Made by a program: the position numbers and the translations under genes. Positions 1,992 through 8,371 of a stretch of DNA of 64,000 nucleotides are shown here, piece after piece. Where the stretch lies: assembly GCA_003697105.1 (NCBI GenBank), contig RFFQ01000012.1, positions 1 through 64,000 on the forward strand. Reading direction: 5' to 3'. The stretch is from Gemmatimonadota bacterium. GTDB taxonomy: Bacteria; 4572-55; J002. Below the pieces are notes generated by a model, which made no database searches, was not told the origin of the DNA, and saw nothing but the letters and a program-made list of their open reading frames with translations. How positions within the stretch are numbered: the first letter of the stretch is position 1; every line of letters starts with the position of its first letter.

Positions 1992-4124
1992 ATGACGCGA
2001 AATAACAGCCTACTATATCTTAGTTTGGGAATTATTCTCTTATTTAGCGGTATAACCCATGCCGTCACCACCCATTTTTGGGAACAAAAAACATCCACAG
2101 ACTTTGCCAAAGGTGTTACAGAACATCTCGCCATCACAAGTGATGGTGATGTCGTGCTCTCACCCCGGCTCAAAACAGTATCTAAGGAGTTATCCGAACT
2201 TTACATCTGGGCGCTGGTAGCCGATCAAAACGGAAATTTATATGCTGGAACCGGTAACGGCGGTAAAATATTTAAAATTACCCCAGATGGAAGGGTTTCG
2301 GTCTTCATGGATTCCCCCCAAGTGAGCATTTTATCATTGATATTTGATAAAAAAGGCAATTTATACGCTGGCACCAGCCCCGATGGACTCATCTATAAGA
2401 TTGAGCCAAACGGGAACGCCACCACGTTTTATCAAACCGAACAACGTTATGTCTGGTCACTCGTCACCGATAACGATGGAAATGTGTATGCGGGCACCGG
2501 TACCCGCGGCAAAATATTTCGGATTCAGCCGGATGGTACCGGCGAAGAATGGTACGATGCCCGGGAAACCCATATTATGACCTTACTCTACCGGAATCAA
2601 ACCCTATACGCGGGTGGCGCCGGATACGGACTGATTTATAAAATTGACGCGAATAAAAATGTGTTCGTCTTATATGACGCCCCAGAAGAAGAAATTCATA
2701 CGCTCATCATGGACACCGCCGGAAACCTCTATGCCGGCAGTATTCCCATCAACTTCCTAGATGTACCGTCTGTTCCGGTAGAGCGGCGTGACCCCAATAC
2801 AAACGGTGAGTCATCTGATTCCGGTACTACTGGCATCTCCTCTGGATTTTCGCTCTCCTCCAACCAGCAAAGTTCGGTGTACCGGATTACACCGGATGGA
2901 AATGTGGATCGTATTTGGAAGTGCCCAGAACCTTTAATCTTATCCATGTTGATCGATTCACAGGGTAATTTGCTGGTCGGTACAGGCAACAATGGAGCGT
3001 TATATCAGGTGAAATTGAATGATCATCGAAACTACATCCAGTTACTGAACTCATCCGACTCGCAATTATTGGCAATGGCAAAATCCCCCCGCAACGAGAC
3101 TATCTACATTGCGACGGGGAATCTCGGACGGCTATATAAGTTAAGTGACACACTGGCAGGAGAAGGTATCTTAGAATCGGATGTCTATGATACTCAGTTT
3201 CACTCGCAATGGGGAGTTTTGAGCTGGGAAAGTGTGACTCCCGAACAAACCGGAATTCGCTTTGCCACCCGTAGTGGCAACACGGAAATCCCTGATGATA
3301 CGTGGAGCGACTGGTCACCTGAATTCGACAAACCCAGTAAAATAACAAGCCCAGCCGCACGATTTATCCAGTGGCGCGCCACTTTAACCACACAGGATAG
3401 TACCATCTCACCGGATTTGTACGAGGTCTCCCTTGCATTTTTGCCAGAAAATATGCCACCGGTGATCTCCGCGATTTCAGTCTATACCGCCGGTGAGAAT
3501 GTCGGTAGTGCCGATGATAATGAGGGAGCAACATCACCAGACGCGACGAATAAGAAAAATGGAAATACGCTCGATAATGGCAAAAGCACCGTGAAATGGA
3601 GTTGCACCGACCCCAACGAGGATGACCTCAGTTACACCCTCTATTTTCGCGGCAAGGGAGAATCAAACTGGAAAATACTGGCAAAAGATCAGACGAGTAC
3701 CGAATACACCTGGAACACCGATACCTTCCCCGACGGTAAATACCAAATTAAAGTGGTTGCCACGGATAGCCTCGACAACCCCGCTACCTTGGCACACACA
3801 ACTGAATTTATCAGCCGAGATTTCATCATTGATAATCATCCCCCAGTGGTTTCCAATTTAACAGCAACACCCGACCGGGGACGTACCGTCCGCATTGAAG
3901 CTACCGCGACAGATAGCATCAACCGGTTGGAAGAAGCGCATTATGCCCTTGATGGGGGAGAGTGGCAATTGATTTTCCCTACAGATCACATTCTCGATCA
4001 GCAAACCGAGTACTTTTCATTTGAATTCACCGGATTAGCCAAAGGCGAGCATCTCATCGTCCTGCGAGTCAAGGATGCGGCAGGCAATACCGGTACCCAA
4101 AAAACCGTTTTTACAGTTCGATAA
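1992..4124 (+). CDS. Secreted beta-propeller protein with C-terminal Ig/FN3-like domains
   Basis: This 710-residue protein has an N-terminal signal peptide (hydrophobic SLGIILLFSGITHA, residues about 11-24). Residues about 60-380 contain repeated blades of the form GNLYAGTGxxGKIFKITPDG followed by a VWSLVTD-type strand, as in NHL/SMP-30 or two-component-sensor-type propellers. Residues about 400-480 hold a lectin-like or discoidin-like beta segment (SGNTEIPDDTWSDWSP). Two Ig-like domains follow: one near 530-610 with DGKYQIKVVATD and one near 615-710 ending KGEHLIVLRVKDAAGN. No kinase or sorting domain follows, so this is an exported propeller, not a sensor kinase. The ribosome site is CGGAG just before ATG 1992. 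The ligand is unknown. Confidence 0.7.
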   Translation: MTRNNSLLYLSLGIILLFSGITHAVTTHFWEQKTSTDFAKGVTEHLAITSDGDVVLSPRLKTVSKELSELYIWALVADQNGNLYAGTGNGGKIFKITPDGRVSVFMDSPQVSILSLIFDKKGNLYAGTSPDGLIYKIEPNGNATTFYQTEQRYVWSLVTDNDGNVYAGTGTRGKIFRIQPDGTGEEWYDARETHIMTLLYRNQTLYAGGAGYGLIYKIDANKNVFVLYDAPEEEIHTLIMDTAGNLYAGSIPINFLDVPSVPVERRDPNTNGESSDSGTTGISSGFSLSSNQQSSVYRITPDGNVDRIWKCPEPLILSMLIDSQGNLLVGTGNNGALYQVKLNDHRNYIQLLNSSDSQLLAMAKSPRNETIYIATGNLGRLYKLSDTLAGEGILESDVYDTQFHSQWGVLSWESVTPEQTGIRFATRSGNTEIPDDTWSDWSPEFDKPSKITSPAARFIQWRATLTTQDSTISPDLYEVSLAFLPENMPPVISAISVYTAGENVGSADDNEGATSPDATNKKNGNTLDNGKSTVKWSCTDPNEDDLSYTLYFRGKGESNWKILAKDQTSTEYTWNTDTFPDGKYQIKVVATDSLDNPATLAHTTEFISRDFIIDNHPPVVSNLTATPDRGRTVRIEATATDSINRLEEAHYALDGGEWQLIFPTDHILDQQTEYFSFEFTGLAKGEHLIVLRVKDAAGNTGTQKTVFTVR

Positions 4125-4770: not shown

Positions 4771-4812
4771 AAAAAAGCCGCATCACTCTTGGCGAGAATG
4801 ATGCGGCATTTT
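4771..4812. terminator. Bidirectional intrinsic terminator
   Basis: The inverted repeat GCCGCATCA (4777-4785) / TGATGCGGC (4799-4807) gives 9 bp and is extended by weaker pairs. It is followed by TTTTT on the plus strand and flanked by a run of seven A upstream, which gives T7 on the minus strand. It sits between two convergent genes and should stop both transcripts. Confidence 0.85.
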
Positions 4813-4831: not shown

Positions 4832-5071
4832 TCAACGGGGCTTGTAATCGGGACAAGTCACTGCATTCGGGCGTTCAGAACGAGTACAAACCGTGCCATA
4901 ATCGTATTTACAGGTATCACATAGATACCGGCTACCGGTCGTTTTCAAATTTCGACCCCCACGCAATTGCCCCCGTTGTTTCTCCTGAATACCAATCATC
5001 AAATAATAAAATGACCGCAACACCAGTACACAGATAGCAAAAACCAAAAATACCAAAAATACCCGCAACAT
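4832..5071 (-). CDS. Small Cys-rich single-pass membrane protein
   Basis: The 79-residue product begins with one strong transmembrane segment (MLRVFLVFLVFAICVLVLRS). After a basic linker comes a C-terminal Cys cluster, CDTCKYDYGTVC, followed by a fourth Cys in TCPDYKP. The spacing is C-x2-C-x7-C-x10-C, which could bind zinc or form disulfides. The start at 5071 is preceded by GGGAG on the coding strand, while longer in-frame starts lack this and would overlap the neighbour. It is the last gene of the minus-strand B12 locus, about 80 bases behind the propeller lipoprotein. I do not recognise a named family. A role in B12 uptake is suggested only by position. Confidence 0.6.
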   Translation of the reverse strand: MLRVFLVFLVFAICVLVLRSFYYLMIGIQEKQRGQLRGGRNLKTTGSRYLCDTCKYDYGTVCTRSERPNAVTCPDYKPR

Positions 5072-5150
5072 GGAACACTCCCGGATAGAACTCAAAACCC
5101 AGTTTCGATGTTCCATAATAAAACGATCCGCGGATAATCGCAATCCGAAA

Positions 5151-6185
5151 TTAACGCACGGCAATTGCCTGAGGCCCATCTCCAACTAAAAATTCACCGG
5201 AAACCTCCCCCGTCGTCACATCCAAAATACCGACTTTATCTTCACCGAAAATATTGAAATAGACAAAGTCCCCACGCCCAATCATGGCGCCGCTATCTGC
5301 CAACGTGGTGAGGGGGTCATCCAGCCCGTGCAAAATCGTATTGGATACCGGATCGTAATTCAATATTCCAACACCAAACCCCGCCAAATACATGGAACCC
5401 TGATGGTACAAAATACCTCCCGGGGAACTCCCAATCGCAATCGAATCACTCACCGTATTTGTATTTAAATCGATAATGTCCACCTGCGCAAAAACTGCCG
5501 GATCACCAAAACCGTAATTCCCCGTGGCGAGAACGTGCAACTCATTTTCCCCATCCAATGCAAACGCTCCCGCATTGAGCGAGACCGGAATCGTTGCCGT
5601 CACCGTAAATGTGCCCAAATCGATTACCGAAACGGTTGCCGGATCGTAGGCATACGTCGTGAAGTCAAAACCGGAATTGGCACTGTACAACTTGCCGTCG
5701 TGGATTAGCAAATCTTGCGGGGATTTGCCTACATCTAAGGTACGCGTAACTTGATTTGTCTCCAAATGGATCTCCGCAATCTGGCTGGCGATAGTATTCG
5801 AGACATACCCAAAGCCCCGTGCCTCATCCAGCACAACATCCCACGGATTGGCATTTGCCCCCATATCGATCAACGCCACATCTTCCCGACTAATGAGATC
5901 GATCACTTGCACCGTGTTATCCAGAGAGTTGGTGACATACGCAGTCAACCCGTCTTCGGTCACCGCAATGGATTGGGGGGACTGACCAACGACAATCGCA
6001 TCATTTTCAACCGTTCCGGTATCCAAATCAATCAGCGACAAGGTACCCGCAAGCCCATTTGCTACAATCAGCTCAAATTCCGGCATAACGGGTTCATTAC
6101 CATCATCATCCTCATCACAACCCGTAATAACCAATAACGAAAAACTGAGGAAAAACACCAAACTAATACGACGTAACATCAACAT
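5151..6185 (-). CDS. YncE-like beta-propeller lipoprotein, BtuG-like candidate B12-binding surface protein
   Basis: This 344-residue protein opens with a lipoprotein signal ending LLVITGC; the Cys is immediately followed by an acidic run (DEDDDGNE), which resembles the surface-export signal of Bacteroidetes lipoproteins. The rest is a YVTN/YncE-type seven-bladed propeller, with blades such as GQSPQSIAVTEDGLTAYVTN and LDVGKSPQDLLIHDGKLYSAN. It starts 8 bases after the BtuB-like receptor, behind AGGAGGG, and shares the cobalamin riboswitch. In Bacteroides, BtuG is a propeller surface lipoprotein that hands B12 to BtuB; the same gene order and fold here make that role likely (inference). A generic YncE propeller is the alternative. 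Confidence 0.75.
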   Translation of the reverse strand: MLMLRRISLVFFLSFSLLVITGCDEDDDGNEPVMPEFELIVANGLAGTLSLIDLDTGTVENDAIVVGQSPQSIAVTEDGLTAYVTNSLDNTVQVIDLISREDVALIDMGANANPWDVVLDEARGFGYVSNTIASQIAEIHLETNQVTRTLDVGKSPQDLLIHDGKLYSANSGFDFTTYAYDPATVSVIDLGTFTVTATIPVSLNAGAFALDGENELHVLATGNYGFGDPAVFAQVDIIDLNTNTVSDSIAIGSSPGGILYHQGSMYLAGFGVGILNYDPVSNTILHGLDDPLTTLADSGAMIGRGDFVYFNIFGEDKVGILDVTTGEVSGEFLVGDGPQAIAVR

Positions 6186-6193
6186 AAACCCTC

Positions 6194-8047
6194 CTAAAAT
6201 ATGAATTGAAGTTCACCCAGCCACTCTCGACCGGGCATAGGAACATATTGAAAATCCGCATAATGTTGGTTGGTGAGATTGCGGCAGGTCAACGCGGAGC
6301 GCACCCGCTCACTCCATTGTAGGTCGAGCTTAACATGCCACAGGTCGTATCCAGCCAACCAATGAAAATTTGCGGCGTTAAGCGGTCGCCGTCCGACACC
6401 ATTATAATCAAGGGTCAAGGTGTGATTTTGGACCAACAATTGCACCTGACCACTGCTAAGATGTTGCGGACGACGAACGAGAATTTTACCATGAGTCGTC
6501 CGTTCGCCACTGCGATTCCGTGGATCGAGATAGGTATAATTCCCTGAGATCACCAACGAGACCAATGGCGCCAACCGTTGTTGCCAATAGAACTGGGTCT
6601 CAATACCCCGAATCTCCGCCCGTGCCAGATTGGAAGGTCGCCAAATACCGGCACCGGTATTTGACCACTGAATCCACTGGTCAATCCGATTCTGAAATAG
6701 ACCCACTTCCAGCCGCAAATTTGATGTGAGATAAGCGATCACCCCACCATCCAGATTGAGGGCACGTTCCGGCTGAAGATTGGGATTGCCCTGTGCCAAA
6801 CCGCTCTGTGTCCAAAATAGGTCGTCAAAATCCGGCAACTTGACCGCCCGCTCGATCTGGAATCGCCCCAACAGCCATACCCATCCCAATTGGCGGCGCA
6901 TACCAAATTGGGGAGACCATTGCACCGGATATTCTGGTGTTAAAACGGTTCGGAGCGCCCCCAGCATCTTAATGCCCGCCCACGAATGCCGGTATTCAAA
7001 GAAGACCGCCGCCGAAGCTCGTGCTGGGTCACCGTCCGTGGTGCTCTTTAATTGGTCCCATTGGCTATTTATCCCGGCGAAGAGCGCTATAGAATCGGAA
7101 AATTGCACGGACTGCTCAAGTCCCACTTCCCACCGCAAATGATCATGTTGAAATTTGGGTGCGTCTGACTGTTTGCGGTAGGTAGATAACTGCCGTCCTA
7201 CGCTCATGACCCCATTTAGTTGGGAGAACATCACAACCGGGATATTATCGTCCCATACGGTCGATAATTGCGCAGATTGATGCTCTGTGATACTCCGGGC
7301 AAGCGGTGTCGGAAAAGTAACCGTTCCCGGAGAGCCGCGTTCCGCATGGGAGACCGTCAATTGCAATTTGGTATGGTCTGTCCCCAATGAAAGGTGAACA
7401 TTACCGGTTGTAAACGCACTATTTTGGAGATCAAAATCGGACTCCGCAGGACGCGCATCACCCTGTGTCACCTGCCCGGACAATTGCATATCCAGCAGAT
7501 CAAATTCGTGCTGATACTCCAGATAGACACCCAGTTGCTGGAGATTTCCGGTCTGAAGCGTGAATCGAGTTTGGGGCTTTCCTCGCTGGGTAATCAAGTT
7601 GATCACGCCTCCCAAAGCACCGGCACCCCACCGGGCGGCACCCCCACTACGAATAATTTGCACCGCCGCAATGCGATTCAAAGAGAGATTACTCAGGTCT
7701 GCCGAACCACTCCGAATCGAGTTCAATTTGCGCCCATCCATGAGTACTAGCACATGGTCTGTCGCCGAACCCCGAATGGAAATTAATTGGGTTTCACCGC
7801 CGTATTGCTGCACATACACCCCCGGCACCGTCTGGAAAATATGAGCAAGGGAAATGGCCGGTAATGTTTGTATCTGTCCGGCAGTAATCGTGGTCGTAGT
7901 CGTTATCTGGTGATCATTAAAGATCACCATCCGCTCTCCGGCAACATCGACTGGCGGCAAATGGTAAATCTGTGTCGAATCTGCCGCAAAAGCGGCAACT
8001 GGAAGACGGCACCACACCAACCCTAACACTAAACAGAAGTATCTCAT
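6194..8047 (-). CDS. btuB: TonB-dependent outer-membrane receptor, BtuB-like (cobalamin uptake)
   Basis: The 617-residue protein has a signal peptide (MRYFCLVLGLVWCRLPVAAFA). The TonB plug domain (residues about 35-150) shows LAHIFQTVPGVYVQQYGG, LISIRGSATDHVLVLMDGR and GGAARWGAGALGGVINLIT. A beta-barrel follows and ends in the aromatic strand GELQFIF. The length and plug motifs fit BtuB. The decisive evidence is upstream: a cobalamin riboswitch and attenuator control it. ATG 8047 is chosen because upstream in-frame codons would lie inside the attenuator hairpin. Energy would come from TonB-ExbB-ExbD; exbB/exbD genes occur at 51-52 kb. The propeller lipoprotein follows directly and may be its surface partner. 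Confidence 0.88.
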   Translation of the reverse strand: MRYFCLVLGLVWCRLPVAAFAADSTQIYHLPPVDVAGERMVIFNDHQITTTTTITAGQIQTLPAISLAHIFQTVPGVYVQQYGGETQLISIRGSATDHVLVLMDGRKLNSIRSGSADLSNLSLNRIAAVQIIRSGGAARWGAGALGGVINLITQRGKPQTRFTLQTGNLQQLGVYLEYQHEFDLLDMQLSGQVTQGDARPAESDFDLQNSAFTTGNVHLSLGTDHTKLQLTVSHAERGSPGTVTFPTPLARSITEHQSAQLSTVWDDNIPVVMFSQLNGVMSVGRQLSTYRKQSDAPKFQHDHLRWEVGLEQSVQFSDSIALFAGINSQWDQLKSTTDGDPARASAAVFFEYRHSWAGIKMLGALRTVLTPEYPVQWSPQFGMRRQLGWVWLLGRFQIERAVKLPDFDDLFWTQSGLAQGNPNLQPERALNLDGGVIAYLTSNLRLEVGLFQNRIDQWIQWSNTGAGIWRPSNLARAEIRGIETQFYWQQRLAPLVSLVISGNYTYLDPRNRSGERTTHGKILVRRPQHLSSGQVQLLVQNHTLTLDYNGVGRRPLNAANFHWLAGYDLWHVKLDLQWSERVRSALTCRNLTNQHYADFQYVPMPGREWLGELQFIF

Positions 8048-8059
8048 GATAAACCCAAT

Positions 8060-8092
8060 AAAAAAATCCCAACCCTCACCGGAGAGTTGGGA
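8060..8092 (-). terminator. Riboswitch expression platform: attenuator terminator
   Basis: Read on the minus strand, CCCAACTCTC-CGGT-GAGGGTTGGG forms a 10-bp stem with one G-T pair and a 4-base loop, followed by ATTTTTTT. It lies between the cobalamin riboswitch and the btuB start, so it is best read as the conditional terminator: B12-bound riboswitch, transcript stops (inference from position). Confidence 0.8.
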
Positions 8093-8154
8093 ACTCAATC
8101 CTTTTTAAACGGAAAAATTCCCATCCTTGCACCCCGAAGGATCGTCTGAATGAC

Positions 8155-8310
8155 GGGTAGGCAGGTCTTCTGACTTTCGCATCCACCTTCCTCAATCCCT
8201 TCCTCCGAAAAGTGGTGTTGATTGAGGTCGTCCGCGATTACAGCAGCGGGGGCTGTTCCGGATTTGCACCGGATTCCCTATTCTCCCGCAGAGCGGGCAC
8301 CTAGCCGACG
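8155..8310 (-). ncRNA. Cobalamin (vitamin B12) riboswitch
   Basis: On the minus strand the conserved aptamer core is visible in order. GGGAATCCGGTGCAAATCCGG is directly followed by the B12-box region (AACAGCCCCCGCTGCTGTAA), then TCGCGGACGA, and the 3' segment GCGAAAGTCAGAAGACCTGCC. These are the hallmark elements of the cobalamin riboswitch. The boundaries are approximate. It is followed by an attenuator hairpin and the btuB-like gene, and preceded by a good promoter. Confidence 0.95.
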
Positions 8311-8342
8311 TGTGATATACATTTTGTAAAAGAACACGGGGC

Positions 8343-8371
8343 AATTTACGTGAAATCACCCCGAGGGTCAA
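8343..8371 (-). promoter_or_regulatory. Sigma70-type promoter for the B12 locus
   Basis: On the minus strand TTGACC (8366-8371) and TAAATT (8343-8348) are separated by exactly 17 bases and lie about 30 bases upstream of the riboswitch. It should drive riboswitch, btuB, propeller lipoprotein and the small membrane gene. Confidence 0.7.

Follow-up and report, generated by a model that had tools for sequence, protein, structure and literature searches.

The window analysed here, a stretch of 64,000 nucleotides from contig RFFQ01000012.1 of a Gemmatimonadota bacterium, represents a poorly sampled phylum and most likely carries a B12 capture locus of the BtuG type that works in the manner of BtuBG. 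The locus lies on the minus strand and consists, in this order, of a cobalamin riboswitch, a terminator, a BtuB-like receptor, a propeller lipoprotein, a small gene whose product carries four cysteines (Cys4) and a second terminator. A riboswitch-controlled pair of BtuB and a BtuG-like propeller outside Bacteroides, as put forward in a preliminary description of this DNA, is upheld by profile, by fold and above all by genomic context. The interval 5071–8371, given there for the locus, encloses the regulatory RNA, btuB and the propeller gene, but it ends at the start codon of the small gene, the body of which occupies 4832–5071. The riboswitch, the gene order, the predicted fold and the association of the propeller with btuB and the riboswitch, conserved in several phyla, form the established part of this explanation. 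Another propeller protein, with Reg_prop repeats and Ig-like domains, is encoded on the plus strand at 1992–4124 of the window and is unrelated to the B12 locus.

The riboswitch aptamer at 8319–8143 (minus strand) matched RF00174 over the full length of the model (1–189) with 106.4 bits and an E-value of 1.2e-25, well above the gathering score of 31.5 bits, and was the only match to this family in the genome. An intrinsic terminator of 11 pairs followed by a T-run was found by a terminator scan at 8092–8067 on the same strand, as an expression platform between the aptamer and btuB, and RNA energy folding gave the same structure, in agreement with the cobalamin riboswitch and the terminator-type attenuator of the preliminary description. 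A hairpin that competes with this terminator, GGAuuGAGUU-CCC-AACUCUCC, was read by eye rather than predicted by a tool and could be the antiterminator. The transcription unit is closed by a further terminator of 13 pairs and a T-run at 4807–4777 (minus strand), also obtained from the scan. The promoter proposed at 8371–8343 (TTGACC-17-TAAATT, 9 of 12) was dropped, as comparable sites in the region were not above chance, with six observed against 5.5 expected in shuffles.

The propeller gene (6185–5151, minus strand) starts 8 bp past the btuB stop and encodes a BtuG-like seven-bladed beta-propeller lipoprotein of 344 aa. The acidic, export-like run noticed earlier was confirmed, as the lipobox VITG-C23 is followed by DEDDDGNE directly after the lipidated Cys23 (CDEDDDGNE); one Phocaeicola BtuG, for comparison, reads C-SDDDDD. 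The AlphaFold2 model, built with 17 aligned sequences, reached a pLDDT of 93 and a pTM of 0.90. A Foldseek search of this model against the PDB ranked 1l0q, an archaeal YVTN propeller, at the top, followed by all BtuG1, BtuG2 and BtuG3 entries and then by hydrazine synthase and YncE, with E-values of 1e-18 to 7e-16 for the BtuG1/2/3 chains and 1.8e-13 for Escherichia coli YncE. VIA-align Z-scores were 32–35 for BtuG, 38.5 for 1l0q and 34 for lactonases, which does not separate BtuG from other propellers, and this ranking was given up as a test for BtuG.

At the level of sequence, the profile of the propeller family matched BtuG1 in the PDB with an E-value of 2e-22 and YncE with 2.4e-13. The hhalign comparison with three Bacteroidota BtuGs extended over 284 columns (probability 99, E 4e-18), against 127 columns (E 2e-9) with E. 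coli YncE, an uneven comparison in that the YncE side was a single sequence. Pairwise identity between the window propeller and BtuG is about 20%. PF16819 (DUF5074), the Pfam family of BtuG, did not match the window propeller, and among the relatives it scored 23 bits in L043 and 32 bits in L044 at a cut-off of 27.2. A residue-level mapping onto the BtuG2 pocket (W194, W272, Y316, Y335) was abandoned, as the sequences are too divergent. Overall, the fold and the sequence of the propeller lean to BtuG, short of proving orthology.

The alternative that survives best makes the propeller a generic lipoprotein of the YVTN/YncE type, independently recruited to a btuB locus, which would serve another role, structural or with another ligand, and would have no lid function. 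It draws on 1l0q, a generic archaeal propeller, which is the single best match by both fold and sequence, a rank probably due to general YVTN repeats, and on the BtuG/YncE trees, which were built twice and show long branches with the deep order not separated, so that a grouping of the window protein with YncE is not rejected (AU p 0.297; the AU p values were 0.297 and 0.46). Because this deep phylogeny does not separate BtuG from YncE types, strict orthology to BtuG is unproven. A propeller nearer to unrelated YncE proteins, the outcome named beforehand as fatal to the BtuG assignment, is allowed by the trees but contradicted by the profile and Foldseek scores, both of which place BtuG above YncE. 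With the placement of its relatives and their second domain, described below, also standing against it, we regard generic recruitment as unlikely.

Genomic context is the strongest evidence for the BtuG-like assignment. Relatives were gathered on the propeller sequence alone, with riboswitches disregarded, and the 14 strong named ones came from KSB1, Zixibacteria, WOR-3, one genome labelled Gemmatimonadota and bacteria that are unclassified or of doubtful label. A BtuB-like receptor was located within 0.4 kb upstream of the propeller in all 14, and a cobalamin riboswitch upstream in 12, the two exceptions being WOR-3 loci. The profile search of 386 genomes gave 58 matches at E<=1e-20, 41 of them within 6 kb downstream of an RF00174 match on the same strand, and in the stricter set (E<1e-30) the same held for 38/46, both counts taking in the window locus and a few profile members. 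Two spacings between riboswitch and propeller recurred, about 2.3 kb in the order riboswitch-btuB-propeller and 0.1–0.4 kb where the riboswitch directly precedes the propeller. Among the best 30 loci, btuB stood beside the propeller in 22, and either btuB or a riboswitch in 27, far above random placement, which by our own estimate would put about 0.3% of propellers, well under 1%, near a riboswitch; such a linkage argues against generic recruitment.

Several of the relatives' loci carry additional genes. Downstream of the propeller in L045 (4428–5269, G010), a small lipoprotein resembling a DUF4430/transcobalamin-like domain and a membrane protein resembling an ECF transporter S component were recognized by eye; in L046 (9363–9929, G002), an ECF S-component-like membrane protein, likewise read by eye, lies just 3′ of the riboswitch, ahead of two TonB receptors and the propeller. 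L062 and L067 harbor two propeller genes per B12 locus, with L067 also carrying btuB and the cobalamin riboswitch in duplicate. In B. finegoldii (L109), a btuB1-btuGH locus was found on a record labelled plasmid 34, a replicon that may be either mobile or wrongly labelled.

Ten of the 14 named relatives (among L058–L068 and L070) have a second, conserved domain of roughly 190 residues behind the propeller. Nine of these ten close with a type IX secretion tail of the usual kind (YPNPFN...SGIY); in the tenth, L058, a dockerin-like stretch takes this place. For the second-domain model (pLDDT 77), the two best VIA-align matches were BtuH2 (7biz, Z 13.3) and the BtuG1 H domain (8blw, Z 13.1), with the next match at 9.6, and its top Foldseek match was BtuG1. 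A C-terminal sequence profile of the relatives, searched against the PDB, matched only FlgD-like and Por tails and not BtuH, and hhalign against the H domain of B. finegoldii reached only 76% over 73 columns; comparison by fold was clearer on this point. Judged on the predicted model, the second domain of the ten relatives is BtuH-like, a further point against a generic propeller, and the nine with type IX tails seem, from their sequences, to owe their display to type IX secretion in place of a lipid anchor. The window propeller has no second domain of this kind, and a search for one elsewhere in its genome, run without a positive control, found none.

The receptor encoded at 8047–6194 (minus strand, 617 aa) carries both the Plug (PF07715) and the barrel (PF00593) domains above the Pfam cut-offs, and TIGR01779 (TonB-B12) was the best of all NCBIfam models with 139.3 bits, in keeping with the receptor first read at this place. 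This score lies under the equivalog cut-off of 599.7 bits, and the receptor is therefore termed BtuB-like. Its residues 458–474, WIQWSNTGAGIWRPSNL, align with extracellular loop 8 of Bacteroides BtuB, with which they share the length and an aromatic tip, here W469; the position of Tyr538 in BtuB3 (PMC10404256) is thus occupied by Trp. An aromatic residue is found at this loop-8 position in E. coli BtuB too, yet E. coli has no BtuG.

A less probable alternative holds that receptor and propeller import a related non-cobamide ligand, such as another metal tetrapyrrole, and that the riboswitch is merely a shared regulator. The shortfall against the TIGR01779 cut-off (139 versus 600 bits) speaks for it, as do the heme and siderophore receptor models, which also match the receptor. 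Against this stand the rank of TIGR01779 as best model, the control by a cobalamin riboswitch and the physiology of a genome that uses B12 while lacking CbiC, and we consider the import of another ligand very unlikely. Methylmalonyl-CoA mutase and MetH are present in this genome, CbiC, an enzyme of B12 biosynthesis, was not found in it, and its one FecCD permease belongs to a btuF-btuD-btuC operon on another contig; these calls tested only fold families, gene names beyond the families being read from the sequence. The presence of btuFDC and of B12 enzymes together with the absence of CbiC suggests that the organism is a B12 salvager.

Taken together, the locus is probably a B12-repressed uptake unit in which the propeller serves as a surface lid that captures B12 for the BtuB-like receptor, where we infer the surface exposure, the B12 binding and the lid action. 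Given the riboswitch class and the terminator, B12 when present would favour the terminator at 8092–8067 and keep btuB and the propeller off, whereas in its absence transcription would pass the terminator into both genes. The lipidated propeller would then be exposed on the outside of the outer membrane, where it may bind cobamides, cap the BtuB-like receptor as a lid and pass the ligand on for import driven by TonB, in the way of Bacteroides BtuG. BtuFDC, encoded on the other contig, would subsequently move B12 into the B12-requiring cell.

The small gene with four cysteines reported in the preliminary description is present at 5071–4832 (minus strand) and encodes 79 aa (YLCDTCKYDYGTVC...RPNAVTCPDYK) with a hydrophobic N-terminus and the four cysteines towards the C-terminus; the window copy matched neither Pfam nor NCBIfam. 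Relatives of it were obtained from 21 of the 385 other genomes, where they stand beside unrelated genes. Neither btuB nor the propeller occurs within 1.5 kb in any of the 21, and an Rfam scan of 20 of them (all but L108) gave no cobalamin riboswitch. These relatives (L088–L108) are short proteins of a scattered family that has the pattern YLCDxCxYDYxxxCxxPERPNAxxCPDY and lies beside varied genes. Conservation beside btuB had been set as the test for an extra component of the B12 locus, and that proposal failed on linkage, as none of the 21 relatives in 386 genomes is so placed. That this gene contributes a function to the B12 system is the least credible of the readings considered, since the gene, though on the same strand, 79 bp downstream of the propeller with no strong terminator between them and a terminator after it (4807–4777), is missing from every other btuB-propeller locus examined and its relatives lie away from btuB and RF00174. 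Judging from these sequences, it is very likely a bystander to the B12 locus, perhaps co-transcribed with, or read through from, the B12 operon.

BtuG homologues have been published as exclusive to Bacteroidetes (PMC6143338), and no BtuG was reported from other organisms relying on BtuB (PMC12751083); what drove Bacteroidetes to add BtuG was raised as a question, with the crowded gut as a suggested answer (PMC6143338, PMC12751083). A BtuG-like lid locus outside Bacteroidota implies that this capture device appears far more widespread than published. Such a spread was partly foreshadowed by a 2026 paper on DUF4465, another B12-binding family, which extends over eight clades and often stands beside PF16819 propellers (PMC13398666), while no description of BtuG in KSB1, Zixibacteria or WOR-3-type phyla was found in the open literature. 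On balance, we favour the view that BtuG-type surface capture of B12 is old and widespread across phyla (KSB1, Zixibacteria, WOR-3) rather than a speciality of gut Bacteroidota, with a varied display, by a lipid anchor in the window and by BtuG-BtuH fusions with a type IX tail in most named relatives. If lid-type capture indeed extends across environmental phyla, gut competition would not be the whole answer for BtuG. The assignment also helps in naming the many propellers annotated as "YncE family" or "surface layer" in environmental genomes, and it offers a test of the lid mechanism without the Bacteroidota lipoprotein export route.

Among known systems, E. coli YncE and the archaeal 1l0q share the propeller fold and the repeat type of the window protein and have no known cobalamin link, with YncE being a weaker match than BtuG by both profile and Foldseek. 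The closest BtuG by sequence and Foldseek is BtuGH (BtuG1) of B. thetaiotaomicron (PMC10404256, PMC12751083), whose two-domain layout is common to the ten relatives, whereas the window protein is without the H domain. Compared with BtuB2G2 and BtuB3G3 of the same species (PMC6143338, PMC10404256), the window locus lies outside Bacteroidota, at an identity of about 20% and with a receptor of 617 aa, it has no BtuH or BtuJ partner, and its btuFDC genes are on another contig. What it has in common with these BtuB-BtuG systems is the riboswitch control, a receptor whose loop 8 matches in length and bears an aromatic tip, a btuB gene adjoining btuG and a seven-bladed propeller lipoprotein with acidic residues behind the lipidated Cys.
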